Part shown: one piece after another, positions 1,217-48,444 of the stretch
Position numbering within the stretch: the stretch's first letter is position 1
How the letters are laid out: each line of letters starts with the position of its first letter
Made by a program: the position numbers and the translations under genes
Source of the DNA: Paenibacillus aceti
GTDB lineage: Bacteria; Bacillota; Bacilli; Paenibacillales; Paenibacillaceae
DNA: 64,000 bases
Reading direction: 5' to 3'
Assembly: GCF_003614185.1 (NCBI RefSeq)
Contig: NZ_KZ987724.1
Coordinates: forward strand, 2,986,171 to 3,050,170
The notes under the pieces: generated by a model
The model's input: only the letters and a program-made list of their open reading frames with translations
What the model was told of the DNA's origin: nothing
Databases searched by the model: none

Positions 1217-3544
1217 TTAAAAAATAGCATGACCTAGAACTTCCTGGAGTTCACCGTTAACGAATAGTTGTACCGGCTCGCTGGCCGTATTCATGATGGA
1301 AATCTCCTGGGGCGTGATGCTGATCTCCAATAGCTTGCCCTGCCAGTGCAGCGGGAAGCTCAGTTTCTCCCAATGCTCTGGCAGCTTAGGCGCCAGATGA
1401 AGCTGGCCGTCCAGCATTCTCACTCCGGCAAAGCCCATCACGACACATTCCCAGATTCCACCGAGAGATGCGGAATGAATACCGGCATCTGATGAGTGCA
1501 CCTTCGGCCCCAGATCGATTTCAGCCGCTCTCTTGAAGAGATGATAAGCCAATTCTTTGTCACCGAAGTCGCTGGCCAGAATCGAGTGGGTCGACAAGGA
1601 CAAGGATGAGTCATGCAGCGTCTTCTCCTCGTAATACTCGTAGTTTGCCAGCTTCACTTCAGGGGGGAATTTATTTTCCAGCAAGAAGAACAGCATCATG
1701 ATATCCGCCTGCTTCGAAATCTGCATATTCCCAACCTGATCCAGGTTGTAATCATTGAATATGCTGCCCACTTTTTCCTGATCCTAGTAAGGCGTAAGAT
1801 CTATAATTTCTTTTTGCAAATACGTATCGTCCTGCGGAATAATCTTGTTCTCATTCGGCTGTGGCAGATAGATCAGATCCAGCTTGCTCTCCCATACCTT
1901 CCGCGCCTCCTGCAAGTTAAGCAGCTCATCATAACGCTGGAACAGCTCAGGGCGTTCTTCTTGTAGCTTGCTGTAATATTCCAACGCCAGCTCGATATTG
2001 AAATGTGCCATGTAATTCGTGAAGGCGTTGTTGTCCACATGCTCTTTGTATTCGTCCGGACCAACGACCTCGTTAATCTCATACCGTCCTTCGGCTTCGT
2101 CCCACTCCAAGCGACTAGCCCAGAATATCGCCGTATCGAAGATCATCTCGTAACCGTAGCGCTCCATGAAATCCTCATCCCCAGTTGCCCGGAAATAATG
2201 CCATACGGCATAGGCAATATCGGAGGTAATATGCTGTTCGATAAAGCCGGACCAGATCTTCGTCTGCTCGCCTGTGACAATATCCACCGCGCCCCAGACC
2301 GGCGTCACTTCACCATCGGATGGCCAAGCAGCTTCCCAAGGATACATCGCTCCGGCATAGCCGTTCTCCTTCGCCTTGCGACGTGCCCCTTCAAGACCCA
2401 GATAACGGTATTCCAGCAGCGAACGTGCCGTCCTCGGATTACTGTAAATGTAGAATGGCAGGATGAAGATTTCCGTATCCCAGAAGGAATGTCCCTTGTA
2501 GCCTTCACCGCTCAGCCCCTTCGCGCCGATTCCCATTCTCCGATCATGGGCTGGCGTCATAACAACGAGATGGTACAGAGCGAAGCGTAGGGCCAAAAGG
2601 TCAAAGGAATTCTTCGATTCGATCATAATTCCGTATTCCTTCCACACCCTCGCCCAAGCGGCAGCATGATTACGGAACAGCGCATCATAGCCTGTAGCAT
2701 ACATGCTCTTCAAATCGTTAAGCGCATGCTCTCTCATCACTGGCAAGCTGTATTCTTGCATATAGGCTTGATCACGACTGGTATGAACCGTTGATATCTT
2801 CTCGAAGCTGAGGGTCTGTCCTTCTTGCAGCTCCACGCTGTAAGCGACTGCCACCTTGCGGCGCTCGATCTCCATTACCGGACTAATCTCAATTTCTTGG
2901 CCGTCCAGCTTCAAGCGATGGGCAGTACCAATGACAAAATCAACTTTGGATTCGGTCGTCGTCTGGATCAGTTCCAAGTATTTCTTATCATAGATCCGTT
3001 TCTCACCCTCATGGAAATGCTGGCTGCCGCTGTTCGTGAGCTGGGCATCGATGCCGGAGGCGATCGATAATTTCACCGCTCCACTTAAAGCCTTCACTTC
3101 TACCTTCATGCCGATCAAATGTAGATGATCCAGAGATACGAATCTACGGAATGTAAATTGCAGCTGCTTGCCTTCCTCATTGCTCCAGATCAAGGAACGA
3201 ACCAGCTCCGCATCACGCAGGTTCAAGCTACGGCTGTACTCGGTCACTTCTCCCTGCTCCAGAGTGAACCGTTTACCGTCAATCCGGATATCCAATGCGG
3301 TTACATCCGCCGCATTCGGCAGCTCACTCACTTCAAACTCATCGAAGCGATTAAAAGTACCGTTCACGAACAGATTGCGCTTCTCTCCTACATAGGATTC
3401 TTCGGCGGCGGAACGCAGTCCCATATAGCCGTTGCCTAGAGACATTACAGCTTCGCACTTTCCGAGCGCAAGAGCCTGAAAGCTCTCCTCTGTAACTACC
3501 CAATCCGATGCTCCGTCCGGCAGTTTCTTGTTGTATTTTAGCAT
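1217..3544 (-). pseudogene. GH65 disaccharide phosphorylase, interrupted by in-frame TAG
   Basis: Glycoside hydrolase family 65 (maltose/kojibiose/trehalose phosphorylase type), a cytoplasmic enzyme that splits a glucosyl disaccharide with phosphate. The start is ATG 3544 with AAAGGA 9 nt upstream. One reading frame spans 775 codons, close to the usual size of the family, but codon 587 is TAG (1784-1786), between DLTPY and DQEKVGSIFNDYN. The first part carries the GH65 core and the catalytic acid region (NEVVGPDEYKEHVDNN). The part after the stop carries the phosphate-binding region (HSSDAGIHSASLGG) and the C-terminal beta domain. A truncated product would therefore lack the phosphate site. 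The remainder could only be made by restart at GTG 1771 or by readthrough. No frameshift is seen and the downstream codons remain well conserved, so the lesion looks recent or is a sequence error. Substrate is not decidable here. Confidence 0.85.
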
Positions 3545-3587
3545 GGCGTAAATTCCTTTCTACTCCGAAATTTCTCTTTAAATTTTC

Positions 3588-3643
3588 TGTAAACGTTACC
3601 GAAATCGTTTTCGAAACTCAAAAAAATTCGAAACGATTCCGAA
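3588..3643. promoter_or_regulatory. cre-like site and two LacI-type operator half-copies before GH65
   Basis: Three overlapping or adjacent signals lie 44-99 bp upstream of the GH65 start. A CcpA cre-like box, TGTAAACGTTACCG, at 3588-3601 differs from the consensus TGNAANCGNWNNCA only at the last base. ACCGAAATCGTTTTCGAA at 3598-3615 matches 15 of 18 bases of the perfect palindrome at 3679-3696. TTCGAAACGATTCCGAA at 3627-3643 is a further imperfect dyad. I infer operators for the adjacent LacI protein plus catabolite control. Confidence 0.6.
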
Positions 3644-3678
3644 AAATATCCTTTTGGCTAGATTTTTATGCAAAGGTT

Positions 3679-3696
3679 TTCGAAAACGTTTTCGAA
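3679..3696. promoter_or_regulatory. Perfect 18-bp palindromic LacI-type operator
   Basis: TTCGAAAACGTTTTCGAA is its own reverse complement and has the central CG typical of LacI-family operators. It sits just after the LacI stop codon and about 135 bp upstream of the GH65 start, with two degenerate copies between. It is probably bound by the product of the adjacent lacI-type gene; this is inferred from position and symmetry. Confidence 0.7.
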
Positions 3697-3700
3697 CTTA

Positions 3701-4711
3701 TTATAAAGTCTTAATAGACTCCCTGTCAACTATTTTGAAGGGAAGAATTTTATGATACCCTGGCAAATTATCCTCCAGCATCTTGACGACCTGCTCCAGA
3801 GCCGTAAATCCGATACTCGCAAAATCCTGACAAACCGTGGATAGCTTGGGCGTTGTATAGCTGGACAGGACAATATCATCAAAGCCCATAATGGAAATGT
3901 CCTCGGGAATGCGCAAGCCAAGCTCCTTGCAGCGGTTCATAAAGCCGATCGCCATCAAATCACTGGCCACGAAGACCGCGGTTAATTGCGGATTGTCATT
4001 CAAATAGGCTTCCGTAAGCTCATAAGCCTTCTCTTCACTAAAGTTAGCTTCTATCACTCGGTTAGCAATGAACGGCATTCCCGCCTGCTCTAACGCTTCA
4101 CGATACCCCTGCTCCCGCGAAATACTGACCGTCGCATATTTATGCCCGTTCACCATGCCGATCTCACAGTGCCCTTTGCTGATCAAATACTGCACCGCCT
4201 GCCTTGCTGCCAGCAGATTATCGGTAATTACAGAGCCTGTATGTGGACCGACGGTGTGAGCATCGATGACAATACATGGAATATCGCTCTCCACCAGTTC
4301 CTCAAAATAAGGGTCTGTCGTCCGCAGACCTGAAATCACGACGCCCGCTATTTTATGATCTTTGCAGAATTGCCAGTAGGATCGATCCTGTTGCTCAGAT
4401 AAACTGCGCGTATAAATGACAACCTCATAATCATACTTGGTAGCCGCAGCGTATACTCCGCTCATAATTTGGAACATAACGCCGTCCTTACCGCTCGTCT
4501 GCTCGAAGTTGGAAATGATCAGCGCGATCGTCCTCGTTTTTTTGTGCTTGAGATTCTTCGCCAGCATATTCGGAGAATAATTCAGCTCCTGCGCTGCCTT
4601 GAGAATCTTCTGTCTGGTTGCCTCACTAACATCGCTATACCCGTTCAAGGTCTTGGAGACCGCCGAAATAGACACATTAGCATGCTTGGCCACATCTTTA
4701 ATAGATACCAT
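3701..4711 (-). CDS. LacI family transcriptional regulator
   Basis: DNA-binding sugar-responsive repressor. The N-terminal LacI helix-turn-helix and hinge are clear (SIKDVAKHANVSISAVSKTL, then SEATRQKILKAAQELNYSPN), followed by the periplasmic-binding-protein-like effector domain (TIALIISNFEQ, AGVVISGLRT, AVFVASDLMAIGFM, DISIMGFDDIVLSSYTTPKL). Start choice: ATG 4711 puts MVSIKDVAK at the N-terminus, as is usual for the family (336 aa). An upstream TTG at 4738 would add nine residues. Neither has a strong ribosome binding site. The gene precedes the GH65 gene on the same strand, and the 156-bp gap between them holds the likely operators, so it probably controls the GH65/binding-protein unit. 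Confidence 0.9.
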   Translation of the reverse strand: MVSIKDVAKHANVSISAVSKTLNGYSDVSEATRQKILKAAQELNYSPNMLAKNLKHKKTRTIALIISNFEQTSGKDGVMFQIMSGVYAAATKYDYEVVIYTRSLSEQQDRSYWQFCKDHKIAGVVISGLRTTDPYFEELVESDIPCIVIDAHTVGPHTGSVITDNLLAARQAVQYLISKGHCEIGMVNGHKYATVSISREQGYREALEQAGMPFIANRVIEANFSEEKAYELTEAYLNDNPQLTAVFVASDLMAIGFMNRCKELGLRIPEDISIMGFDDIVLSSYTTPKLSTVCQDFASIGFTALEQVVKMLEDNLPGYHKILPFKIVDRESIKTL

Positions 4712-4959
4712 GTTTTCTGCACTACCATCCTTATTCAATTTTCATTTACTTTCTGATTCGTTTTCATTATAGCATATAGGTCAAAAGCAGGAAAAAAAGC
4801 CGGTAAAGCTTTATAGGGAGTAATTTAAAAGGTCATATTATTCCAAACAACATGAATCCGATCGCGTTGATCGCAAGATTAGCAAACATATGGACCATCC
4901 TTTAAGCGGCTTTTGCGATTCGATATATTAAATTTCTATACTCGCCCCTTAATGACCTC

Positions 4960-34336: not shown

Positions 34337-35422
34337 TTATTTAGGCTGGATATATCCTTCCGCTTTCAGCAACTCAGCGATTAGGACAGCACCGCCAGCG
34401 GCGCCGCGCAGGGTGTTGTGCGACAAGCCGACGAATTTAAAATCGTATAATGAATCCTTGCGCAAACGGCCGACGGATACACCCATACCGCGCTCGATGT
34501 CGCGATCCAGCTTCGTCTGCGGTCTGTTCTCTTCTTCAAAGTACGTAATGAACTGCTTCGGCGCACTTGGCAGACCAAGCTCCTGCGGACGTCCAGCAAA
34601 TTGGCTCCAGCGCTTAATGATCTCTTCTTTCGAAGGTTTATTCTCAAACGAGACAAACACTGTAGCCAAGTGACCATCTGTTACAGGAACGCGAATGCAT
34701 TGAGTTGTAATCAACGGCGAGCTGGCCTTAACGATTTCTCCGCCTACAACATGACCCCAAATTCGCAGCGGCTCCTGCTCGCTCTTCTCTTCTTCCCCAC
34801 CGATATACGGAATTACATTATCCAGCATATCCGGCCAATCTGTGAAGTTCTTACCTGCTCCAGAGATGGCTTGATAAGTGGAGGCAACAACTTGGGTTGG
34901 CTTGAAATCAAGCAAGGCATTCAGCGCAGGGACATAGCTTTGGATCGAACAGTTTGGCTTCACCGCGATAAATCCGGTCTTAGTACCAAGGCGCTTTCTT
35001 TGGGCAGCGATGACCTCGATATGCTCTGGGTTAATTTCAGGAATCACCATCGGAACGTCTGGCGTCCAGCGATGAGCTGAGTTGTTGGAGATGACAGGCG
35101 TACCTGTCTTGGCATAAGCTTCTTCCAAGGCAAGAATCTCATCTTTTTTCATATCTACAGCACAAAATACAAAATCCACGTCAGCCGCAACTTCTTCTAC
35201 CTTTGCAGCATCCTGTACGATAATATTTTTCACTTGTTCCGGAATGGGGCCGGCCATCTTCCATCGATCCTGGACTGACTCTTCGTAAGTTTTGCCCGCT
35301 GATCTGCCGCTAGCTGCAATACTTACCACCTCAAACCATGGATGACCGTCCAACAGCTGCACAAAACGCTGCCCGACCATGCCCGTTCCTCCGATAATCC
35401 CCACTTTAAGCCTTTCTGCCAT
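34337..35422 (-). CDS. asd: Aspartate-semialdehyde dehydrogenase
   Basis: 361-aa NADP-dependent enzyme that reduces beta-aspartyl phosphate to aspartate semialdehyde, the branch point to lysine/diaminopimelate, threonine and methionine. Evidence: N-terminal KVGIIGGTGMVGQRFVQLLD (NADP fold), VISNNSAHRW, active-site Cys in AVKPNCSIQSYVPAL, and the acid/base His in ITTQCIRVPVTDGHLATVFV. The sequence is of the archaeal/fungal-like ASADH type rather than the classical E. coli type. ATG 35422 has GGAG 6 nt upstream. It stands alone with its own T-box leader and terminator, a housekeeping gene between two sugar loci. Confidence 0.93.
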   Translation of the reverse strand: MAERLKVGIIGGTGMVGQRFVQLLDGHPWFEVVSIAASGRSAGKTYEESVQDRWKMAGPIPEQVKNIIVQDAAKVEEVAADVDFVFCAVDMKKDEILALEEAYAKTGTPVISNNSAHRWTPDVPMVIPEINPEHIEVIAAQRKRLGTKTGFIAVKPNCSIQSYVPALNALLDFKPTQVVASTYQAISGAGKNFTDWPDMLDNVIPYIGGEEEKSEQEPLRIWGHVVGGEIVKASSPLITTQCIRVPVTDGHLATVFVSFENKPSKEEIIKRWSQFAGRPQELGLPSAPKQFITYFEEENRPQTKLDRDIERGMGVSVGRLRKDSLYDFKFVGLSHNTLRGAAGGAVLIAELLKAEGYIQPK

Positions 35423-35573: not shown

Positions 35574-35865
35574 AAAAAAATCTCACCCCTAAGACTGTAG
35601 TCTCAGGGACGAGATTTGGATTCTCGCGGTACCACCCTAAATTTACCGATATGTCGCCATATCAGCCTCTTCAAGTACAGCAGAAGTGCATATACTTTAG
35701 CTCTGTAACAGGAGCTCCTGGCACACCATCTCCTGATGATCTCAGGTTTCGGAGTGCTGCTCAGAGTCTTTTTTCGGATAAGCGATTCTTTGCTCCTTTT
35801 CACCGCAGCGGAGCTCTCTGGAAAAGAACCAGTTTACCTACTCTTCTCTTCATCGCATTTGGTAT
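35574..35865 (-). promoter_or_regulatory. T-box leader of asd, probably lysine-specific
   Basis: The minus-strand T-box sequence AGGGTGGTACCGCG (35638-35625) is an exact match to the consensus. It is followed by a terminator hairpin (TCTCGTCCCT and AGGGGTGAGA with T-run, 35574-35615) that competes with the antiterminator. Upstream, GATGAAGAGAAGAGTA and AGAGAGCTCC...GGTGAAAAGGAGC form stem I. Alignment to a glyQS-type leader (GAAA, specifier, ten bases to GAGC) puts AAA at 35771-35769 as the specifier codon; the neighbouring register reads AAG. Both are lysine, which fits asd. Confidence 0.88.
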
Positions 35866-38183: not shown

Positions 38184-39503
38184 CTAATTGGATGAAATAC
38201 TTGTCTTGATTGTATCGACCATCGTATCCAGTGTGGTCTTGACGTCCGCCTTCGGATCGTCCCAGATTGTTCTAAACGCCGCTTGAAGCGGATCCCATAC
38301 CGCATTAATCTCCCCGATAGTCGGCATCGGCGTGGAGTGAGAGAACTGCCCATAGAACCCACTGATAACAGGATCATTCTTGATTGTAGGGTCCTCTCCT
38401 GCTTCCTTGTTCGCTGGAATGGCTCCCGTCATCTGGTAGTTCAACAACTGGTTCTCCTTATTAGCCGCGAAGTTGGAGAAAAGGCGAGAAGCAATCGGAT
38501 ATTCGGTGTAAGAGTTAACAAAGTAAGCTTTCACGCCAGAGAAAGAATGAGATACTTCGCCGTTTGACATCGCTGGCAAGGGAGCAACTCCGAAGTTGAC
38601 TTTGTCTTTGAATGCCGCTATCGACCATGGCCCGTCGATATTCAAAGCCAACTTACCTTCCTGGAACAACTGCGTCTTCACGTCATAGGACACATCTCCC
38701 GCATTCATAGGCAGAATTTTTTTAAGGCTCTTCAGCAGCTCAAACCCTTGAACCGCTCCTTCGTTATTCAAACCGATATCGGTTGGATCGGTGTTATCAT
38801 TACCGAAGAAGTAGCCTCCGAGCGTGCTGACGAATGGATAGGTATAATACCCAACGAACTCCCACATAATGGCGTATTTATTTTGCTTGGTATCCGTGTA
38901 GGTCTCCGCGAAGCTTATAATTTCGTCCCAAGTTTTCGGAGCTTCAGGGAAAATGTCTTTGTTATAGTACATGGCGTACGTCTCAACCGATTTTGGATAG
39001 CCGTACAGAACTCCATCATAAGATACTGCTTTGATTGCGGAATCCTCCATGACAGCGCGTGTCTCATCCTCGAACAAATCGTTAGGCAGAAGAAGACCTG
39101 CTTTAACCGCTTGAGCGATCTGATCATGAGGCATTGTAAGGACATCTGCTGCAAGCTTCGATGGTCCGTCAGTCGCTAGACGAGTGCCCTGATCCCCGCC
39201 GGCTACGACTTCCAGCTTGACCTGTACTCCATACTGCTTCTCGAATTCGGCCGCGACTTTCTCCATATACTCCATTTGCTCTTGTGATTCCCATACCGTC
39301 AACTTGGCTCCAGGTTCCGGTAAATACTCCTCTTCGTTCTCGGTAGAAGCCGGAGGCGTATCGGATGTGTTAGATGGTTGTGCACTGTTCGGGCTTGAAT
39401 TGCCTCCGTTGCTGCCCCCGCATGCCGCCAGACTGAGAACCAACATTACACTAACCAGACCGATAACCCATTGTCGCAACTTCGCTTTTTGTTTCAACCT
39501 CAC
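38184..39503 (-). CDS. malE: Maltodextrin/cyclodextrin-binding lipoprotein
   Basis: 439-aa solute-binding lipoprotein: signal VIGLVSVMLVLSLAACGG, Ser/Asn/Pro linker, then EPGAKLTVWESQEQMEYMEK, PNDLFEDETRAVMEDSAIKA, YGYPKSVETYAMYYNKDIFP and INGPW-like INIDGPW block as ALNIDGPWSIAAFKDKVNFG, typical of MalE/GanO-type proteins. Start choice: GTG 39503 has AAAGGG 8-9 nt upstream; GTG 39512 is too close to that site. Gene order malE-malF-malG and the flanking cyclomaltodextrinase and CGTase point to uptake of maltodextrins or cyclodextrins. Confidence 0.9.
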   Translation of the reverse strand: MRLKQKAKLRQWVIGLVSVMLVLSLAACGGSNGGNSSPNSAQPSNTSDTPPASTENEEEYLPEPGAKLTVWESQEQMEYMEKVAAEFEKQYGVQVKLEVVAGGDQGTRLATDGPSKLAADVLTMPHDQIAQAVKAGLLLPNDLFEDETRAVMEDSAIKAVSYDGVLYGYPKSVETYAMYYNKDIFPEAPKTWDEIISFAETYTDTKQNKYAIMWEFVGYYTYPFVSTLGGYFFGNDNTDPTDIGLNNEGAVQGFELLKSLKKILPMNAGDVSYDVKTQLFQEGKLALNIDGPWSIAAFKDKVNFGVAPLPAMSNGEVSHSFSGVKAYFVNSYTEYPIASRLFSNFAANKENQLLNYQMTGAIPANKEAGEDPTIKNDPVISGFYGQFSHSTPMPTIGEINAVWDPLQAAFRTIWDDPKADVKTTLDTMVDTIKTSISSN

Positions 39504-39541
39504 ATTGTCCACCCTTTCTTGATTGAGTTTCTTTTTCTTTG

Positions 39542-39555
39542 TGCAAACGTTATAC
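39542..39555. promoter_or_regulatory. Second cre-like box in the malE leader
   Basis: TGCAAACGTTATAC lies about 40 bp before the malE start and shares TGCAAACGTT with the site over the promoter at 39737-39750. It could act as a roadblock site for CcpA or a LacI-type protein. Confidence 0.45.
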
Positions 39556-39600
39556 CAATTCTGTAAAAAATACCTCTACCCACTAACTCCTTGTGACTAT

Positions 39601-39715
39601 AAAAAAAAGAGTACAACTCTCTACAAATCGAATGATTGTCGAGGTTGTACCCTTGGGGTAGCAGCGCCTTTAAATTGTCTCAAGCGGTTGTATTCTCCAC
39701 TAGAACTATTAAGAC
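39601..39715 (-). promoter_or_regulatory. malE leader with shared motif and terminator-like hairpin
   Basis: From the predicted start near 39715 the RNA contains a small stem (GTCTTAA/TTGAGAC enclosing AGTGG/CCGCT), then ACAATTTAAAGGCGCTGCT (39678-39660), then a hairpin with GGGTACAACCTC (39652-39641) and GAGAGTTGTACTC (39621-39609) followed by eight T. The hairpin lies about 100 nt before the malE start, so it can act as a leader terminator. The 19-nt motif recurs before the CGTase gene (17 of 19 identical), and part of it before the cyclomaltodextrinase gene. Confidence 0.6.
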
Positions 39716-39721
39716 ACTTTC

Positions 39722-39751
39722 ATTATAAGATTTACGAGAAAACGTTTGCAA
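39722..39751 (-). promoter_or_regulatory. malE promoter overlapped by cre-like site
   Basis: Minus strand TTGCAA (39751-39746) and TATAAT (39727-39722) with an 18-bp spacer. TGCAAACGTTTTCT (39750-39737) matches the CcpA consensus except its last base and covers the -35 region, as expected for catabolite repression. Confidence 0.65.
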
Positions 39752-39948
39752 ATATTAAAATTGAGGGAATTTATCGTAATATTACTTAAATTCATTGAAA
39801 TCATTAACTTTTCCTCTGTTATAGTCCAATATCTCCATTTTCTTCTTCATTACTCACTAAAGAATAATTATTTTAAATAAATACCTGTCCTCCAAGCCGA
39901 CTTATTAAAGCTGTTGCCAACATGGAAACCATGTGTTAAGATGGGGGA

Positions 39949-40010
39949 AATTTAAAGGCAATGAAACTTTCGGGTTCAACCTCGGTTTATTCAGAGGTTG
40001 GACCCTTTTT
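39949..40010 (+). promoter_or_regulatory. Cyclomaltodextrinase leader with shared motif and terminator
   Basis: AATTTAAAGGC at 39949-39959 is followed by GGGTTCAACCTC (39972-39983), which pairs with GAGGTTGGACCC (39994-40005) and then TTTTT. This is a good intrinsic terminator ending only 31 nt before the start codon at 40042. AATTTAAAGGC and GGGTNCAACCTCG are both shared, in the same order and with 12-13 nt between them, with the divergent malE leader. A 6-bp hairpin ACATGG/CCATGT lies just upstream (39920-39934). Confidence 0.6.
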
Positions 40011-40041
40011 GCGTTCTCTTGCCTGAAGGAGGCCATCATTA

Positions 40042-41838
40042 ATGATTGAGCTGGAAGCGGTATATCATCGCAGCGGACTGAATTGGTCCTATGCCTATAA
40101 CGAATCGACCGTACACATCCGTCTCCGCACGAAACGTGGCAATGTGACGCAGGTACGGCTGGAGTGTGGCGACAAATATAACTGGGATAAATATAACGAA
40201 TCCATTGCCATGGAACGGTTCGGTTCAGACGGCCTGTTCGATTACTGGCAAGCCACTATATCACCACGATTTCGGCGGGTTGTCTATTATTTTGCCCTCT
40301 ATGGGGAAGCGGGCGAGACCGTCTATTTTCTGGAGAAGGGATTCTTCAATACGCCTCCAACGATTCTTTATGAGGGGCTGTTCGATTTCCCATATCTGAG
40401 CCCTGAGGATGTTCACTCCCCGCCAGAATGGGTCAAGGAAGCAGTCTTCTACCAGATCTTTCCCGAGCGATTCGCCAAGGGCGATCCATCCATCGACCCG
40501 GAAGGGGTGCTGGAATGGGGCGATGTGCCGAGCCCAACCAATTTTTTTGGCGGCGATCTGCAAGGCGTGCTTGATAATCTAGATTATCTTGTTGAGTTGG
40601 GAATCAATGCGATCTATTTCAATCCATTGTTCGCCGCGACCACTAATCACAAGTACGACACGCAAAATTATATGCTTGTCGATCCACAATTCGGCACGAA
40701 TGAGAAGCTGAAGGAACTGGTTAACGCCTGTCATACCCGGGGCATCCGGGTACTGTTGGACGGCGTCTTCAACCATTGCGGGCACACATTTCCGCCCTTT
40801 GTTGATGTTCAGCAGAACGGACCCGCCTCCCGCTATGCCGACTGGTTCCATATCAGGGATTGGCCGCTCAAGGAGGAGGACGGCATTCCGAACTATGCCA
40901 CCTTCGGCTTCGAGCCGATTATGCCAAAGCTGAACACGGGCAACCAGGAGGTCAAGAACTATCTGCTGGAGGTCGGGCGGTATTGGATCGACGAGCTGGG
41001 GCTGGACGGCTGGCGTCTCGACGTGGCCAACGAGGTGGACCATACATTCTGGCGCGAGTTCCGGCGCGAGATCAAGAAGGCGAATCCAGACGCCTACCTG
41101 CTCGGGGAAATTATGCATGATGCGATGCTGTGGCTTCAGGGCGACCAGTTCGATGCTGTGATGAATTACCCGTTCACCAACATCGTGCTTGATTTCTTCG
41201 CTAGAAGACGCATTGACGCCATTCAGTTTGCTCAGAGCATCAACGCCCAGTTGGCCAACTTCCCGCAGCAGGTCACCGAGGCCGCGTTCAACCTGCTGGG
41301 CAGCCACGATACCGTCAGGTTGCTGACGCTGTGCGGCGGCAATAAACGGCTGATGAAGCTTGCAGTGCTGTTCCAGCTGACCTTTCAGGGGACGCCCTGC
41401 ATCTACTATGGGGATGAGATCGGCCTCGACGGAGAGCATGATCCCTACAACCGCAAATGCATGGAGTGGGACCCCGGTAAGCAGGATCGCGAGCTGCTGG
41501 GCTTCTTCCGCCGCCTTATCGCCATGCGCAAAGCTCACCCTGCATTACGCGGTAGCGGCCTACGCTTTCTAACAGTCACTGGGCACCCTCAGTTGCTCGC
41601 TTACGAACGACGCGACGAACAGGACCGCTTTCTGCTGCTCCTGAACAATAACGAGAACGAATGCTCCGTCACCCTGCAGAGCAGCGGGATGAACAGAATG
41701 TGGCTGGATGCCTGCAGCGATGCCGATGTCCAGAGAGACGAGGGGACGATGCAAGTGGTACTCCCTGACTTTGGATACGCCATCCTGCATATTTCTGCGG
41801 ATACTGGCAGCGACGCAATCCTTCTATCCGCTCGTTAG
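40042..41838 (+). CDS. Cyclomaltodextrinase / neopullulanase (GH13_20)
   Basis: 598-aa cytoplasmic alpha-amylase-family enzyme that opens cyclodextrins and hydrolyses maltodextrins or pullulan. The N-terminal CBM34-type domain (about 1-120: [20 protein letters not shown]) is diagnostic of the subfamily and makes the dimer. The barrel has [25 protein letters not shown], nucleophile Asp in [13 protein letters not shown], acid Glu in YLLGEIMHD and Asp in [10 protein letters not shown]. There is no signal peptide. GGAGG lies 9 nt before ATG 40042. With the CGTase and the MalEFG importer it completes an extracellular-to-cytoplasmic cyclodextrin route. The middle of the gene is noticeably richer in GC than its flanks. 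Confidence 0.92.
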
Positions 41839-41898
41839 AGCTCGTTCCAGACCCGGTGTTGCCCGGCACTGTAGTCCAAAACTTTTTACTGTTAGTAT

Positions 41899-41927
41899 TT
41901 GACAAAAATAGAATGGCCATTTAAAAT
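41899..41927 (+). promoter_or_regulatory. Strong promoter of the CGTase gene
   Basis: TTGACA (41899-41904) and TAAAAT (41922-41927) with a 17-bp spacer, close to the vegetative sigma factor consensus. The start would be near 41934, leaving a leader of about 240 nt. Confidence 0.75.
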
Positions 41928-41933
41928 GAAGGC

Positions 41934-42058
41934 GCATTCTTGTTTTTATTCTGCAAAGCTGGGCAAGGGTGCCGATCTACAATTTGAGGGCGCTGCTTTC
42001 CTGATCATATTCCGAATCAGGAACAACCCCGTAATCTTCAAGAGAAGATTGCGGGGTT
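41934..42058 (+). promoter_or_regulatory. CGTase leader with shared motif and hairpins
   Basis: ACAATTTGAGGGCGCTGCT (41979-41997) repeats the motif of the malE leader at nearly the same distance from the predicted start (about +46 against +38). It is followed by a 7-bp hairpin TCCTGAT/ATCAGGA and a 15-bp hairpin, AACCCCGTAATCTTC (42025-42039) with GAAGATTGCGGGGTT (42044-42058), then ATTTGC. The T-run is poor, so termination is less certain than in the other two leaders. Confidence 0.55.
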
Positions 42059-42173
42059 ATTTGCATTGGCGTCGAGAAAGGAGGAGGCCGACTACATTCA
42101 GCGCTTGGCTTGGTGTCCATGGTAGTGTGTACGTGCAGAAACAGTATAAAAAGCTTGAAAGGCGGTTTGATCA

Positions 42174-44333
42174 ATGAAACGGATGATTAAAAAATCAATT
42201 ATCACACTGCTTGCTTCCACCTGTCTCTTTACAGCATGGCTCGCTCCGTCTTTTGCTGTTCCTACGGCAAACGCCGCTCCCGATACATCGGTTCTGAACA
42301 AGCAAGGGTTCTCCACCGATGTCATCTATCAGATCGTTACCGACCGCTTCGCGGACGGAGATCCTTCCAACAATCCGTCCGGTGCCGCATTTTCTCCGGG
42401 CTGCACGAATCTTAAGCTATACTGCGGCGGAGACTGGCAGGGAATCATCGATAAAATCACCGACGGCTATTTTGCGGGAATGGGCATCAGCGCGCTGTGG
42501 ATCTCCCAGCCTGTAGAAAATATATACAGCATCATCGACTACTCCAGCGTAAACAACACGTCTTACCATGGCTATTGGGCTCGCGATTTCAAACGGACAA
42601 ATCCGGCGTTTGGCAGCATGAGCGATTTTCAGGAACTGATCGACACCGCTCATGCCCATAATATTAAAATTATTATCGATTTTGCGCCGAACCACACTTC
42701 CCCGGCTTCCGAGACGCAGCCCTCCTTCGCCGAGAATGGGCGGCTGTACGATAATGGCAGCCTGATCGCCGGTTACACTGGGGATACGAACGGAATTTTC
42801 CATCATAATCAGGGAACGGATTTTTCATCGTTAGAAGATGGCATTTATCGTAATCTGTATGATTTGGCTGACATCAATCACCACAACAACAAAACAGACG
42901 CCTACTTCAAGGAGGCCATCAAGCTTTGGCTGGATATGGGCATCGACGGCATCCGGGTAGACGCGGTAAAGCATATGCCGGAAGGCTGGCAGAAGAACTG
43001 GGTAGCTTACATTTCGGGATATAAGCCGGTGTTTACCTTCGGCGAATGGTTCCTCGGAGTCGGCGAGAATGATCCGAGCAACGTCAGCTTCGCCAATGAA
43101 TCGGGCATGAGTCTGCTGGATTTTCGATTCGGACAAAAGGTTCGCCAGGTATTCCGCGACAACACTGACAATATGTACGGCTTGAACAGCATACTTGCAG
43201 GAACCGCAGCCGATTACACGCATATTCAAGACCAGGTCACATTCATTGACAATCATGATATGGACCGCTTCAAGCTCGGTAACAATAACCGCCGCCTGGA
43301 GCAGGCACTGGCCTTTACGCTTACCTCGCGCGGTGTTCCGGCTATTTATTACGGTACGGAGCAATACATGGCAGGCAACGGTGATCCGGCAAACCGCGCC
43401 TTCATGAGCAGCTTCTCGACGGCTACCACAGCCTATAAAGTCATCGGCAAGCTGGCTCCGCTTCGCAAGTCCAATCCGGCTATTGCTTACGGCAATACCC
43501 AGGAGCGCTGGATCAATAACGATGTTTATGTTTACGAGCGGAAATTCGGCAGCAGCATCGCGCTGGTGGCCATTAACCGCAGTGAGACTGCCGCCGCATC
43601 GATTACCGGCCTACAGACATCACTTCCTGCCGGCTCCTACGCGGATCTGCTGGGAGGATTGCTCGATGGTAACGGCATAACGGTCGGCAATACGGGCTCC
43701 GTAACGGCCTTCAACCTTCCGGCCGGAGCCGCTGCCGTATGGCAATTTACCACTGACGAGACGGCTCCGATCATCGGCAATATCGGACCGGATCTGGGGA
43801 CAGCCGGGACGACACTGACGATCGACGGGCGGGGCTTTGGCAATGCCAAAGGAACCGTCTACTTCGGCACAACGGCGGTCTCTGGAAGCCAGATCATTCA
43901 GTGGGAGGATTCCCAGATTCAAGTGATCGTTCCGGCGGCTACACCCGGCACGCATAACGTGAAGGTTCGTAGCGCCTCCTCCGTAGACAGCAACAGCTAC
44001 AGTAGCTTCAACTTACTGACTGGGGATCAGGTATCGGTCCGTTTCATCGTGAACCATGCCAGCACCGTATACGGCGAGAATGTTTACCTGACAGGCAATA
44101 CTCCCGAGCTCGGCAACTGGGACCCGAACAAGGCAATCGGCCCTTTATTCAATCAGATCATTGCCGCCTATCCGTCCTGGTACTATGATGTCAGTGTGCC
44201 TGCCGGAACGGAACTGCAATTCAAATTCATAAAAAAGAACGGTAGTGCTGTCACCTGGGAAGGCGGAGCCAACCACAGTTATATAACACCAGCCAGCGGT
44301 GTCGGCACTGTTGTAGTCGACTGGCAGCCGTAA
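42174..44333 (+). CDS. cgt: Cyclomaltodextrin glucanotransferase (CGTase)
   Basis: 719-aa secreted GH13_2 enzyme that converts starch to cyclodextrins. The signal peptide ends around [11 protein letters not shown]. Domain [49 protein letters not shown], nucleophile Asp in [13 protein letters not shown], acid Glu in FTFGEWFLG, Asp in [11 protein letters not shown]. Domain C follows, then a TIG/IPT domain D ([20 protein letters not shown]) and a starch-binding CBM20 domain E ([47 protein letters not shown]). This five-domain plan and the length are standard for CGTase. AAAGGCGG precedes ATG 42174 by 8 nt. Confidence 0.95.
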
Positions 44334-44444: not shown

Positions 44445-46430
44445 TCAGTTGGCCAACGCTTTAGCGGCCGCACGATCGCCGCCAAGACGACCGGAAGTAA
44501 ATGAATAACCGATTCCGACGCCGTTGCCGACATAGGTATCATTAAACAGTACACCTTCCGATTCCAGACCTACCGCGAACAATCCAGGGACCGGGACGCG
44601 CTTGTCATTCAATACCTGAAAATCGGTATTAACGAGCAAGCCGCCTACTGAGCCGAGGTTGTTGATCTCAGCGATAATGGCGTAATATGGACCGCTCTCT
44701 CCCATCAATTGCAAATAAGCCTTGGATTTGCCGAACTCGACATCCACCCCGGTGCGAATAGCTTCTTGATATTTGTTGAAGGTGTTCTTAAATACATCAG
44801 TATCCATGCCAGCGTTCTTCGCCAACTCCTCGATAGTGCCGCCCTTGTATCCGTCTCCGTTCTCCACCATCGAATCAAAGACTTGCTGTGCATTTTTCCA
44901 AGGCGTATCCAGCTTGAATTGATCCTGGAAGTCGGCATAAAATTCCGGCGGCATGCCTGGAAGTCTAGGCGCTTTCACGCCATTCATGCCTTGTGCGGTC
45001 AGTGCATCGATTTGTGATTGAGACACGATAACCAAATGATAAGGGCCATTAAAAGCACTTGTATTAGCGGCAGCTACCGCTTCCAATGTAGCCGCCTCGT
45101 CGCGGAATCTTGCCCCGGATGGCCCGACATTGATAAAGTTCGGCAAATAGCTGAGCATCAGCGGATAGCTGGCTTCAAATGAAGAGTATTGCTCCTTCAG
45201 CTTGCCAGTAGCTCTGGCAAGCGTTTGGTGCAGCATTTGGCCTCCGAGGTTGTCTGGAACCTTGGCTCCAGCCGCCCATGCCATCTCCAGCCCTTCGCCG
45301 ATATTTTGTCCCAGCCCCCCATTGATGCCTTCGAATCCAAAGACTTCCTTAACCATCTCTTTGTTGGCCGCATAACCACCGGTTGCCATCACAATGCTCT
45401 TAGCTGTAACCTCAAGTGTAGTTCCGTCCTTCTTCTCTGCTATAACTCCTGTAACTTCGCCATTCGTTCCAGTCATCAGCTTCTTAGCGGTCGTCTCGGT
45501 AATCACCTGGCCCCCGTTCTTCTCAACGGATTCCGCCAACATGTTCCTCAGTAATTCCTGACGGGTATCATAAGCAGGAAGCACGTGCAGCGGCTCGCCA
45601 GCGAAATTCATGAACATGGTCTTATAACCTTTATCCGCCAGCCAGTCATACGTTTCTCCGGACTTCATGACATATTGCCGGATCGCAGCAGCGTCAACGC
45701 GCCAATGATTGTTATAGATCCAATCGGCTATTTCCTGCTCTACGTTAACTTTCAAGCCTTCATTCAACGATGCGGAAGAATTATAAAATTTACCGGCCCA
45801 GGACAAGTTGCTCGCACCGCCGATCGTTGCCGTCTTCTCAATAATAATGACTTTGGCCCCTTTGTCTGCCGCCGATACGGCTGCCGATACGCCTGATGCG
45901 CCTGCGCCTACGACAACTACGTCCGCCGCAAGCTGCTCCGTTAAACCTTCGCCCGGCTTCTTTACCGCATTTGACTTAAAAGCTTCAACGTCCCCTCCTG
46001 CCTGTTTCACGGCATCCTCCACCGCGGCCAGCAAACCGGCACTTGTCTCGGATGCTCCGGATACGGCGTCTACGGCTAACGTCTGGCCATCAATAATTTG
46101 CTCCTTTAAGGTGTCGAGTGCAGCATCACCAATTCCTGCGGTTTCGCCTTGGCTCAGTACTTTAATATCCGTAAGTTGATCCTCCGTAAAGGTAACTTCG
46201 ATCTGAATCGTCCCCTCTTTCCCCTTGGACTCCGCTGTATAGATTCCGGGTATAAAGGACATCTTGTTTACGGTATTTTCTTTTTGCGGCGTTAACTGTT
46301 CCGAATTGCTGTTCGCTGAATTTTCTGCTTGCGGCTTGTCTGAATTCCCTTTGCATCCCCCTAGCATCGACAGAATCATAACCAGGCATACTGAAATAAT
46401 CGCAAATCTGTAAACGGATTTTCTGCGCAT
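44445..46430 (-). CDS. Flavin-binding lipoprotein, fumarate/urocanate reductase-like
   Basis: 661-aa surface lipoprotein: signal FAIISVCLVMILSMLGGC. An FMN-binding domain (about residues 65-150) has IPGIYTAESKGKEGTIQIEV and DAVSGASETSAGLLAAVEDA; the SGA region is where this family attaches FMN. The FAD_binding_2 domain begins VVVVGAGASGVSAAVSAADK and ends GNGVGIGYSFTSGRLGGDRA. This combination is typical of extracellular reductases fed by flavin-based electron transfer in Gram-positive bacteria. The true acceptor (fumarate, urocanate or other) is not set by what I can see. Start ATG 46430 has AGGAGGAGG 7 nt upstream; the frame is open back into the group II intron but that part is intron sequence. 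Confidence 0.85.
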   Translation of the reverse strand: MRRKSVYRFAIISVCLVMILSMLGGCKGNSDKPQAENSANSNSEQLTPQKENTVNKMSFIPGIYTAESKGKEGTIQIEVTFTEDQLTDIKVLSQGETAGIGDAALDTLKEQIIDGQTLAVDAVSGASETSAGLLAAVEDAVKQAGGDVEAFKSNAVKKPGEGLTEQLAADVVVVGAGASGVSAAVSAADKGAKVIIIEKTATIGGASNLSWAGKFYNSSASLNEGLKVNVEQEIADWIYNNHWRVDAAAIRQYVMKSGETYDWLADKGYKTMFMNFAGEPLHVLPAYDTRQELLRNMLAESVEKNGGQVITETTAKKLMTGTNGEVTGVIAEKKDGTTLEVTAKSIVMATGGYAANKEMVKEVFGFEGINGGLGQNIGEGLEMAWAAGAKVPDNLGGQMLHQTLARATGKLKEQYSSFEASYPLMLSYLPNFINVGPSGARFRDEAATLEAVAAANTSAFNGPYHLVIVSQSQIDALTAQGMNGVKAPRLPGMPPEFYADFQDQFKLDTPWKNAQQVFDSMVENGDGYKGGTIEELAKNAGMDTDVFKNTFNKYQEAIRTGVDVEFGKSKAYLQLMGESGPYYAIIAEINNLGSVGGLLVNTDFQVLNDKRVPVPGLFAVGLESEGVLFNDTYVGNGVGIGYSFTSGRLGGDRAAAKALAN

Positions 46431-46534
46431 TTCTAATTCCTCCTCCTTTTGGTTTACGCAGCCCCCTCTTCTTTTGTCCCTAAGGCTACAGCCAAAGCTT
46501 AAACATTGGTGCAGCTCCAAGGTCAATGAAGATC

Positions 46535-48444
46535 TAGAGTAAAGGGCTGAAAATTTCAGCCCCTCCTCATCAAACCGTACGTGAGGTTTTCCCTCATACG
46601 GCTTTCCGATGTTCGTCATTCATGTGCATGCAGTTTACAAGAGCGTTTTAAGTCCACATTGATTGGCTATAAGCCTGACCTCGCGAACGGAACTCATCCA
46701 TCGCGCACGTTGCCGCTTCTTCGCATACCATCTCGCAAGTCTTTGCGTGATGTACCAATCCAACTTTGCCATTTTCCGCTGGCTGTAGGCGGTGTAATAG
46801 TAGTTCCGCCATCCTTGAATTTTGGGGTTTAGCCATTCTACGTGTTCTAAAAATGACTTATGCCGCATATTCGGTGGTGCCAAACGGTCCCTCACGACTT
46901 CCCGGATACGCTCTTCTGCTTTCCGTGTCAGCCATTGCTGGGTTGTGTAGTACGCTTTTCCTTTTGAGGTTTCAGCCCTCATCTTGCGATGATGCATGCC
47001 GAGAAAATCGAAGCCTTCTTCTCCAGTCCAGAGTCCAGCAATGCGCGTTTTGGTCGGATGCAATGTGAGTTCAAGACGCTCCATGATCGCTCGAATAAGT
47101 TCGTACGATCGGTCTGCGTCCTTCTTCGTCTTGCACACGACTACGAAATCATCTGCGTATCGCGTCAGTTCTCCGTATCCACTGCCATGTCTTTCCCACA
47201 GAATGTCAAAGTAGTTCAGATAGATATTTGCCAAAAGCGGAGATATGACCCCGCCCTGTGGCGTTCCCAAATCTGAGCACCTGACCGTTCCTTCCTCCAT
47301 TACTCCCGCTTGTAGCCACTTCCGTACCAGTTTCAAGATACGTCTGTCGCTGATTCGCATTTCTACCAGCTTCATTAACTTCTCTTGGTTGATGTTGTCG
47401 AAGTAGCCTTGGATGTCGACGTCGACCACCCAATTCCCTTTGCGATTGCATGCTTTCCGGATTCGGTCGAGTGCTTGCTTCGCGCTTTTCTTCGGACGAA
47501 ACCCAAATGAGCTATCCTGGAAATCCGCTTCAAAGATCGGTTCCATAACCAGTTTTGTTGCCATTTGTATGACACGATCTCGAACGGTGGGGATGCCCAG
47601 CGGTCTTTGCTTCCCGTCTTTCTTCGGGATGTAATGACGGCGGACAGGTTGTGGCTTGTAGTGTCCTTCCTTAAGGATCCGGTGACATTCTAGCAGGAAG
47701 TAACTCTCTCCTTGCTTCTCAATGTCCGAAAACGTTTCACCATCGACTCCCGATGATCCTTTGTTAGCCCTTACCCTTCGCCATGCCTCCCACAAAATAT
47801 CCATTCGGTAGACCTTGTCGTACAGCGCGTGGAATCTGCGCTTCTTGTTCTCCTTGGCCGCAAGACCTAGTTTCTTTTGGAGTTGTTGAACGTTTTCCTT
47901 TGGTGTTGTTAGCCGTTTGGCATTCACTAACTCGTACCTCCTTAAGAAACATGAACAAAGTAGGGCTCCTTTCCTCCCGCAGGTTGTGTTGTCCTGCGGT
48001 TCTTCGGTAATATGGGCCCTTCGGACTCCCTTCCTGCAGACGACTCACTTCACCTTTTGGGCTTATAGAGTGCCTCTTTACGATTTTTTTTCGTGCAGGG
48101 GAGGGTCTCCCCAGTTCACTGCATCTTCTTTCATACCATGCCGCTCCCTATACGCCGGAGGATTCTTCACTGTCGCTCCAAGTTCTTAACAGCTTCCATG
48201 GCCTTCGTCCATACATACGAGACTCGGCTTCCTCTTTTCCCTCTTGCGAGGCCTTTTTGACGACGCGGCAGGATTCACTTCATGTTACGGCCTGGTATGT
48301 CGCTCGCCCTGTCTCTGACAGGTACTTTTGTCGATACGCTTTTACGTACAGATTTCGCCGTCCGCAAGTATCCTAGCTACACAGGGACTTGGCTCCTCCC
48401 GTGGCCGGACTTTCACCGGTTAGAAGATGCGTGCCTCTGGGCAC
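46535..48444 (-). mobile_element. Group II intron with encoded reverse transcriptase
   Basis: About 1.9-kb retroelement. The 5' end is probably GTGCCC at 48444, followed by a short stem (GTGCC/GGCAC) and GGTGAAAGTCCGG of domain I. The 3' end carries domain V (AAGCCGTATGAGG and CCTCACGTACGGTT around GAAAA, 46610-46575) and a domain VI stem (GGGGCTGAAA/TTTCAGCCC) ending near 46534-46540; exact ends are uncertain by a few bases. It lies directly after the terminator of the MerR gene, the insertion preference of bacterial class C introns, and its ORF has no endonuclease domain. Class should be confirmed by RT phylogeny. Confidence 0.85.
46635..47927 (-). CDS. ltrA: Group II intron reverse transcriptase/maturase
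   Basis: 430-aa multifunctional intron protein. RT blocks are intact: RRHYIPKKDGKQRPLGIPTV, VVDVDIQGYFDNIN, GTPQGGVISPLLANIYLN, catalytic RYADDFVVVCKTK, and DFLGMHHRKM. The group II maturase domain follows (FLEHVEWLNPKIQGWRNYYY, RLARWYAKKRQ). There is no HNH endonuclease domain, and the protein ends soon after the maturase domain. It starts at ATG 47927 with AAGGAGGT about 13 nt upstream. It appears intact and the intron may still be mobile. Confidence 0.93.
   Translation of the reverse strand: MNAKRLTTPKENVQQLQKKLGLAAKENKKRRFHALYDKVYRMDILWEAWRRVRANKGSSGVDGETFSDIEKQGESYFLLECHRILKEGHYKPQPVRRHYIPKKDGKQRPLGIPTVRDRVIQMATKLVMEPIFEADFQDSSFGFRPKKSAKQALDRIRKACNRKGNWVVDVDIQGYFDNINQEKLMKLVEMRISDRRILKLVRKWLQAGVMEEGTVRCSDLGTPQGGVISPLLANIYLNYFDILWERHGSGYGELTRYADDFVVVCKTKKDADRSYELIRAIMERLELTLHPTKTRIAGLWTGEEGFDFLGMHHRKMRAETSKGKAYYTTQQWLTRKAEERIREVVRDRLAPPNMRHKSFLEHVEWLNPKIQGWRNYYYTAYSQRKMAKLDWYITQRLARWYAKKRQRARWMSSVREVRLIANQCGLKTLL

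Follow-up and report, generated by a model that had tools for sequence, protein, structure and literature searches.

An antiterminator-like RNA element shared by starch, maltodextrin and resistance-like gene leaders is widespread in Paenibacillus and its relatives

Among the described systems that lie closest to the element reported here, RAT hairpins have a GG/CC lower stem, small internal loops and a stem that overlaps a terminator, while ANTAR sites consist of two hexaloop hairpins. Paenibacillus-like bacteria, the hosts considered below, include producers of CGTase and cyclodextrins. RAT of the LicT/SacT/SacY/BglG systems is treated in PMC9981650, the LoaP/dfn leader hairpin is of the UNCG type and is bound by LoaP, which antagonises NusA (PMC12691694), and Paenibacillus 5′ UTRs have been compared with Rfam (PMC5670726). 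In the openly licensed (CC0/CC BY/CC BY-SA) PMC literature we found no published account of an element such as the one described in this work.

This antiterminator-like element is real and widespread, matches no Rfam 15 family and occurs in three leaders of the window, that is, the whole 64,000-nucleotide stretch of DNA analysed (G000:C1:2986171-3050170, in a 5.6-Mb genome whose genes suggest Paenibacillus). A sequence-only reading had proposed that the malE, cyclomaltodextrinase (cda) and CGTase (cgt) leaders carry related sequence, and we found that each of them holds a copy of one RNA element, with an intrinsic terminator downstream of it (Table 1). The coordinates, identity, offsets and spacing it had reported were all reproduced: the 19-mers ACAATTTAAAGGCGCTGCT (39678-39660, minus strand) and ACAATTTGAGGGCGCTGCT (41979-41997, plus strand) agree at 17/19 bases, the motif lies near +38 (malE) and +46 (cgt) of the starts predicted from promoter-like hexamers, AATTTAAAGGC at 39949-39959 is part of the cda leader, and, counted from the end of AATTTAAAGGC, GGGTACAACCTCG starts at +13 nt in malE and GGGTTCAACCTCG at +12 nt in cda.

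Table 1. Elements, terminators, promoter-like pairs and target genes of the three leaders.
Feature	Coordinates	Strand	Details
Element copy 1, malE-like leader	39640..39678	-	R2 56.1 bits, copy in training set; ACAAUUU-AAAGG-CGC-UG-C-[UACCC CAA GGGUA]-CA-A-CCUCG
Element copy 2, cyclomaltodextrinase-like (cda) leader	39947..39984	+	R2 45.0 bits, copy in training set; GAAAUUU-AAAGG-CAA-UG-A-[AACUUUCGGGUU]-CA-A-CCUCG
Element copy 3, CGTase leader	41979..42031	+	R2 53.6 bits, copy in training set; ACAAUUU-GAGGG-CGC-UG-C-[UUUCCUGAU...AUCAGGAA]-CA-A-CCCCG
malE leader terminator	39601..39654	-	arms AAGGGUACAACCUC (5′) / GAGAGUUGUACUC (3′), then 8 U
cda leader terminator	39972..40010	+	GGGUUCAACCUC ... 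GAGGUUGGACCC, then U5
CGTase leader terminator	42025..42066	+	AACCCCGUAAUCUUC/GAAGAUUGCGGGGUU, then AUUUG, a weak U-tract
malE promoter-like pair, TTGCAA-18-TATAAT	39722..39751	-	consensus match only
cda promoter-like pair, TTGCCA-17-TAAGAT	39914..39942	+	predicted start ~39949, at the element
CGTase promoter-like pair, TTGACA-17-TAAAAT	41899..41927	+	consensus match only
Target 1, MalE-like solute-binding protein, 442 aa	38184..39512	-	NCBIfam GanS, MalE, both below curated cut-off
malF- and malG-like ORFs after the MalE-like gene		-	named by eye
Target 2, GH13 cyclomaltodextrinase/maltodextrin-glucosidase-like, 598 aa	40042..41838	+	below equivalog cut-offs
Target 3, CGTase, 719 aa	42174..44333	+	solved CGTases match residues 35-719, E reported as 0

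The hairpin found in all three leaders has the appearance of a terminator and, judged from the predicted starts, lies in the 5′ UTR each time, as had been claimed; the folds beat shuffles (z -3.0, -4.3 and -4.3), while the promoter and terminator scans lay little above them (7 versus 3.8 expected; 5 versus 3.8 expected). Terminator and element have GGGUACAACCUC in common in the malE leader and AACCCCG in the CGTase leader. The 16-mer core AATTTRARGGCGCTGC has two exact matches in the 5.6-Mb genome, both in the malE and cgt leaders and none elsewhere among the matches listed, and allowing up to 3 mismatches gave 217 matches against 75 for a reversed control. The cda copy, with 3 mismatches to AATTTRARGGCGCTGC, is on its own no better than chance in the window (2.3 matches expected); it is backed by the cda leader of a relative (L261, 42.4 bits), which was absent from the first model. 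At the predicted malE and cgt promoters we also noted, by eye, the sequences TTTGCAAACGTTTTCT (39737-39752, minus strand) and TGAAGGCGCATTC (41927-41939, plus strand), which resemble the cre consensus and suggest that catabolite control may act here besides an RNA switch.

The exact AATTTRARGGCGCTGC core occurs in 11 of the 41 genomes of the genus, at 14 places, and its reversed control in none. By sequence, all 14 places are malE-type or cgt-type leaders, and comparing them revealed an RARGGCGCUGC block, a variable hairpin and then CAACCYCG, which opens the terminator. A covariance model built from 16 sequences (R1; E up to 1 in the genus) gave 64 matches in 33/41 genomes, among them a fourth copy in the source genome (G000:C1:4877857-4877894, minus strand, E 7.2e-6) before a 581-aa GH13 enzyme. 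With a second model of 63 sequences (R2), used at E up to 0.05 for family and order and up to 0.01 for class and phylum, matches were obtained in 212 of 296 sampled genomes and 14 of 19 genera of the family, in 126 of 246 genomes of the order (32 of the 126 belong to other families), in 32 of 299 genomes of the class (8 outside the order) and in 4 of 299 genomes of the phylum, all four of which are from the family and include the source genome. As the phylum is nearly empty elsewhere, it acts as a false-positive control for R2; the genome counts give minimum numbers for true copies, because R2 overlooks some copies with a long P1, such as the GH13 leader of G063 (L463), in which the element was read by eye. 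The covariance-model search across relatives, which the sequence-only reading had named as a check on its proposal, hence places the element well beyond the source genome.

Searches with exact motifs were less informative. A loose scan of contigs showed no element after the motif in L056, L108, L041 and L067, among the matches listed, and the pattern RARGGCGCTGCN{5,34}ACAACC, which hit 67 of 296 genomes of the family, was set aside as mostly chance-like; its match in G116 (L192), the only one from another genus that was examined, is a true relative. Two exact short-P1 patterns had 0 matches in viral contigs. In G184, two elements stand in tandem before one solute-binding-protein gene (L342:3201-3241 and 3319-3358, minus strand), each followed by a terminator-like hairpin of its own.

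To describe the element, R2 was run on 100 + 52 loci, and the 184 matches (59 of the 64 R1 matches of the genus, 113 from 28 genomes, 9 from further loci and 3 in L192/L262) were reduced by 15 duplicates to 169 distinct sequences, a non-random set taken from genomes with known matches, most of the 28 having been picked for several. Across these 169 sites the core consists of a lower stem RGG/CCY, an internal loop CNM/W, UG/CA, a one-base bulge and a hairpin, P1. G11, U16, G17, C47, A48, C50 and C51 are invariant in 169/169, and G12 (168/169), C13 (168/169), A3 (168/168) and C53 (167/169) nearly so; the variable positions are R10, N14, A/C at 15, C/U/A at 18, W49 and Y52. R10 and Y52 pair as A-U at 114 sites, G-C at 51 and G-U at 3, with one gap and no A-C, although few of these changes are independent since A-U or G-C in the lower stem largely tracks gene class. 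P1 is 11-46 nt long, varies in length base by base and shows compensatory changes.

Covariation was scored in two alignments, A6 and A7, which were fitted to the model structure, so that their pairing (99.2% and 98.0% of cells, respectively) is inflated. The covariation scores of 0.496 (A6) and 0.422 (A7) were each reached by 0/500 shuffles, and slid registers scored much lower. Some measures, two of five in A7 and one in A6, did not beat shuffles: pairs changed on both sides reached the observed value in 453/500 shuffles for A6 and 159/500 for A7, and further pair types in 0/500 and 199/500. Because the alignments were fitted to the structure, we also folded P1 freely, without the model: 143 of the 169 hairpins then had the outer pair that was expected (U-A 116, A-U 26, U-G 1), and the other 26 lacked it when folded alone. 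With the lower stem forced, U16-A48 and G17-C47 also pair in three printed examples; as these four bases are invariant, covariation is uninformative on their pairing. A conserved core, stems that covary across species and an expression platform, by which a riboswitch or regulated antiterminator is recognised, are thus all present.

Lower stem and terminator both require the CCYC strand. At 153 of the 169 sites CCYC lies in the 5′ arm of a terminator, compared with 189 of 845 when the downstream sequence was shuffled; the arm extends into CAW or P1 in 121 sites, and 16 sites have no terminator under the rule used. The terminator region is more stable than the antiterminator at 168/169 sites (means -27.0 versus -7.8 kcal/mol), and the best leader fold retains the antiterminator at only 3 of 169. 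Since the terminator is favoured energetically, the leader would be off at equilibrium and the antiterminator would have to be held for the on state, from which we infer that something must hold the antiterminator to turn the leader on. We have good confidence that the mechanism belongs to the class of RAT-like conditional antitermination, in which the element probably competes with the built-in terminator and so decides whether the gene is read through.

In such a mechanism, the nascent RNA would fold the element first, with RGG/CCY, the CNM/W loop, UG/CA, the bulged base and P1 in place. Without the effector, the stabler downstream terminator would take up the CCYC strand and, in most copies, CAW or the 3′ arm of P1 too, and transcription would end ahead of the gene. 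An effector acting in trans would recognise the near-invariant internal loop and the bulge, hold the element and block the terminator, and in the effector-bound state the genes for starch uptake and breakdown would be on together, along with some resistance-like genes. Sequence comparison shows the element itself, its stems, the strand that it has in common with the terminator and the variety of its targets; a default-off leader that is switched on by an effector, like the kind of effector and signal discussed below, is what we infer.

Rfam 15 at gathering score had no match at the three leaders or at 20 loci from relatives. With E allowed up to 10, positions 39400-42200 gave four sub-threshold matches, including CopA at 21.2 bits (cut-off 60, E 1.4) and SurA at 12.2 bits (cut-off 100) at the CGTase leader. 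The sequence-only reading had recognised no known riboswitch or RAT, in line with the absence of an Rfam 15 family at curated score, and its proposal of a common antitermination RNA now has strong support: many species have the element, its stems covary, its conserved stem has a strand in common with the terminator, no Rfam family matches and CAT_RBD (RAT-binding) proteins were not found in many of the genomes that carry it.

An ORF of 200 aa or more begins in the 500 nt after the element at 164 of 169 sites (474 of 845 random places). A point against is that 24 of the 169 fall within an ORF of 150 codons or longer, as 676 of 845 random places do. When each site was classed by simple signatures in the sequence of the largest ORF to start in the next 500 nt, the result was 73 GH13 cyclomaltodextrinase/neopullulanase-like, 27 CGTase-like, 17 nucleotidyltransferase, 16 MalE-like, 8 AAC(3), 7 esterase and 2 MATE targets, 17 others and 2 without any. 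By inspection, the 17 others comprise further GH13 genes, amylase/pullulanase-type genes, a CBM21 protein, an esterase, two AraC-type regulators, an ABC ATPase, an IS110-like transposase, a carboxypeptidase-like gene and further single outliers. Pfam and NCBIfam searches of representatives returned AAC(3) (PF02522), MATE (PF01554), esterase (PF00756), CBM21, pullulanase domains and AraC HTH_18. The assignment to the starch pathway made from sequence is too narrow: lincosamide-nucleotidyltransferase-like, AAC(3), MATE, two AraC-type and one ABC gene also follow the element. All eight AAC(3)-type loci (L245, L246, L249, L251, L254, L255, L316 and L377, the last assigned by Pfam scan and the other seven by signature) have G-C at R10-Y52.

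Other features of the window were noted. A T-box leader (35602-35862, minus strand; Rfam RF00230, 102 bits) sits upstream of an ORF at 34337-35422 (minus strand), aspartate-semialdehyde dehydrogenase-like by eye, which is found between a malG-like ORF and another sugar-binding-protein ORF. A Group II intron (46532-48422, minus strand; RF00029, RF02003) contains a reverse-transcriptase ORF, named by eye, at 46635-47927 and adjoins a flavoprotein-like ORF (44445-46619) whose listed start reaches into the intron region. At 1784-4738 (minus strand), a GH65-like phosphorylase ORF and a neighbouring ORF for a LacI-type regulator, identified by eye in both cases, are possibly another alpha-glucoside unit.

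As to the effector, two protein families were considered. The nucleotidyltransferase had no Pfam match, a weak likeness to Lnu(F/G/B/H) far below cut-off and, as its sole PDB match, 3jyy, a solved lincosamide nucleotidyltransferase (E 7.2e-6). A profile search of 48 chosen genomes (28 element-positive and 20 without matches, with one partial match, in G300, set aside) yielded 11 full-length homologues, 10 of them with the element upstream; three of the 11 were profile rows (G043, G073, G261) and three had previously been found via the element (G025, G531, G599), and the remaining five carry it in 4/5 cases, the exception being G001. The nucleotidyltransferase hence looks like a target and not the effector, and as a common effector it was rejected because full-length homologues were found in 11/48 genomes, the source genome not being one of them. 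Of 26 element-positive genomes, 15 had a detected CAT_RBD (PF03123), as did 7 of 9 element-negative ones. It was not found in the other 11 positive genomes, 8 of which are at least 98% complete and one of which is G043 with its 9 element sites, and a CAT_RBD protein is therefore unlikely as the common effector, unless a diverged version was missed. The likeliest candidate, which may well be the right one, is an RNA-binding protein from outside the CAT_RBD family; a small-molecule ligand comes second and is a possibility we hold only tentatively.

G001 has no model match to the element anywhere in its genome, and no element was detected upstream of its nucleotidyltransferase. Its GH13 leader (L455, reverse strand, read by eye) keeps GCGAAAGGTACATCTTCGG, a P1-like sequence, the 3′ half and the terminator, while the RGGC-NN-UG 5′ half is gone, so that the element appears to have decayed. 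This pattern, of which there are few cases, fits the loss of a trans-acting effector in G001. GH13 genes without a detected element were also seen in G020, G035 and four genomes of genus g8, as well as among some GH13 paralogues of element-positive genomes (e.g. L475, L476 and L480).

The strongest alternative to a protein effector is that a small molecule, either a derivative of a sugar or a general metabolite, binds directly to the element, which would then act as a riboswitch with no need for a protein, a reading to which we give a minority chance. Its compact, near-invariant core with conserved unpaired positions, its position before unrelated genes and the finding that neither protein tested (CAT_RBD, nucleotidyltransferase) is common to element-positive genomes all point this way, but at 35-40 nt in short copies the core is very small, neutral maltodextrins bind RNA poorly and no obvious single metabolite links starch with resistance-like genes. 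To our knowledge, no nameable known regulator explains that link either.

Considering the resistance-like targets, attenuation by ribosomes translating a leader peptide, a mechanism known from many leaders of antibiotic-resistance genes, also had to be weighed, in particular since RARGG resembles a Shine-Dalgarno sequence and 111 of 169 sites have AUG at positions 15-17. At the other 58, however, these positions read CUG, the putative Shine-Dalgarno sequence is only 2 nt from the AUG, the length of P1 varies base by base, and the predicted cda start lies at the element and leaves no upstream room. In the frame at positions 15-17 we found no conserved peptide among the 169 sites, which show 112 different beginnings and open lengths of 1-100 codons; a leader peptide from the element's AUG/CUG is excluded by this unkept frame, and attenuation of this kind is in our view highly improbable. 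Slightly less probable still is a classical RAT bound by a LicT/SacT/BglG-type (CAT_RBD) antiterminator: the general layout, with its GG/CC lower stem, small internal loops and terminator overlap, is the same, yet PF03123 was not found in 11 of the 26 positive genomes and was found in 7 of the 9 without model matches. Least probable of all is that the motif is an operator in the DNA, bound near the promoter by a repressor or an activator, and that the terminators are incidental, for although some leaders have it close to their predicted start and cre-like sites (by eye) are present too, its two conserved halves lie 11-46 nt apart, paired positions change together, the distance to the predicted promoter varies and a strand-sharing terminator follows 153/169 sites.

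Conditional antitermination by the element would, if true, provide an RNA-level switch common to starch and maltodextrin genes in Paenibacillus-like bacteria, make one RNA the link between carbohydrate use and resistance-like genes and offer a defined, testable target for finding the effector. That it represents a new riboswitch or antiterminator class of Paenibacillales, a 35-40-nt RNA answering to a signal common to starch breakdown and to antibiotic-inactivating or -exporting functions, is a speculative extension that we rate as less probable than the mechanism itself; an aminocyclitol, a compound resembling a sugar or a general cue of starvation might, for instance, serve as such a signal.

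Compared with known systems, the element resembles T-box leaders in the choice between antiterminator and terminator, but the Rfam T-box model misses the three leaders and matches elsewhere in the window. Like the two-hairpin antiterminators regulated by ANTAR proteins, its antiterminator overlaps a terminator in the leader; unlike them, it is one bulged hairpin with a variable loop. The LoaP/dfn hairpin likewise lies close to an intrinsic terminator in leaders of Bacillota, whereas the conserved part here is the stem base together with an internal loop, which compete with the terminator. From RAT as generally described, the element differs in its 3x1 loop CNM/W, its one-base bulge and its variable P1, in its starch/ABC and resistance-like targets and in that a CAT_RBD protein, expected in every genome that uses RAT, was not found in 11/26 element-positive genomes. 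With RAT of the LicT/SacT/SacY/BglG type it shares a short, bulged leader hairpin that has a strand in common with an intrinsic terminator, a connection to sugar catabolism and an expected default-off state.
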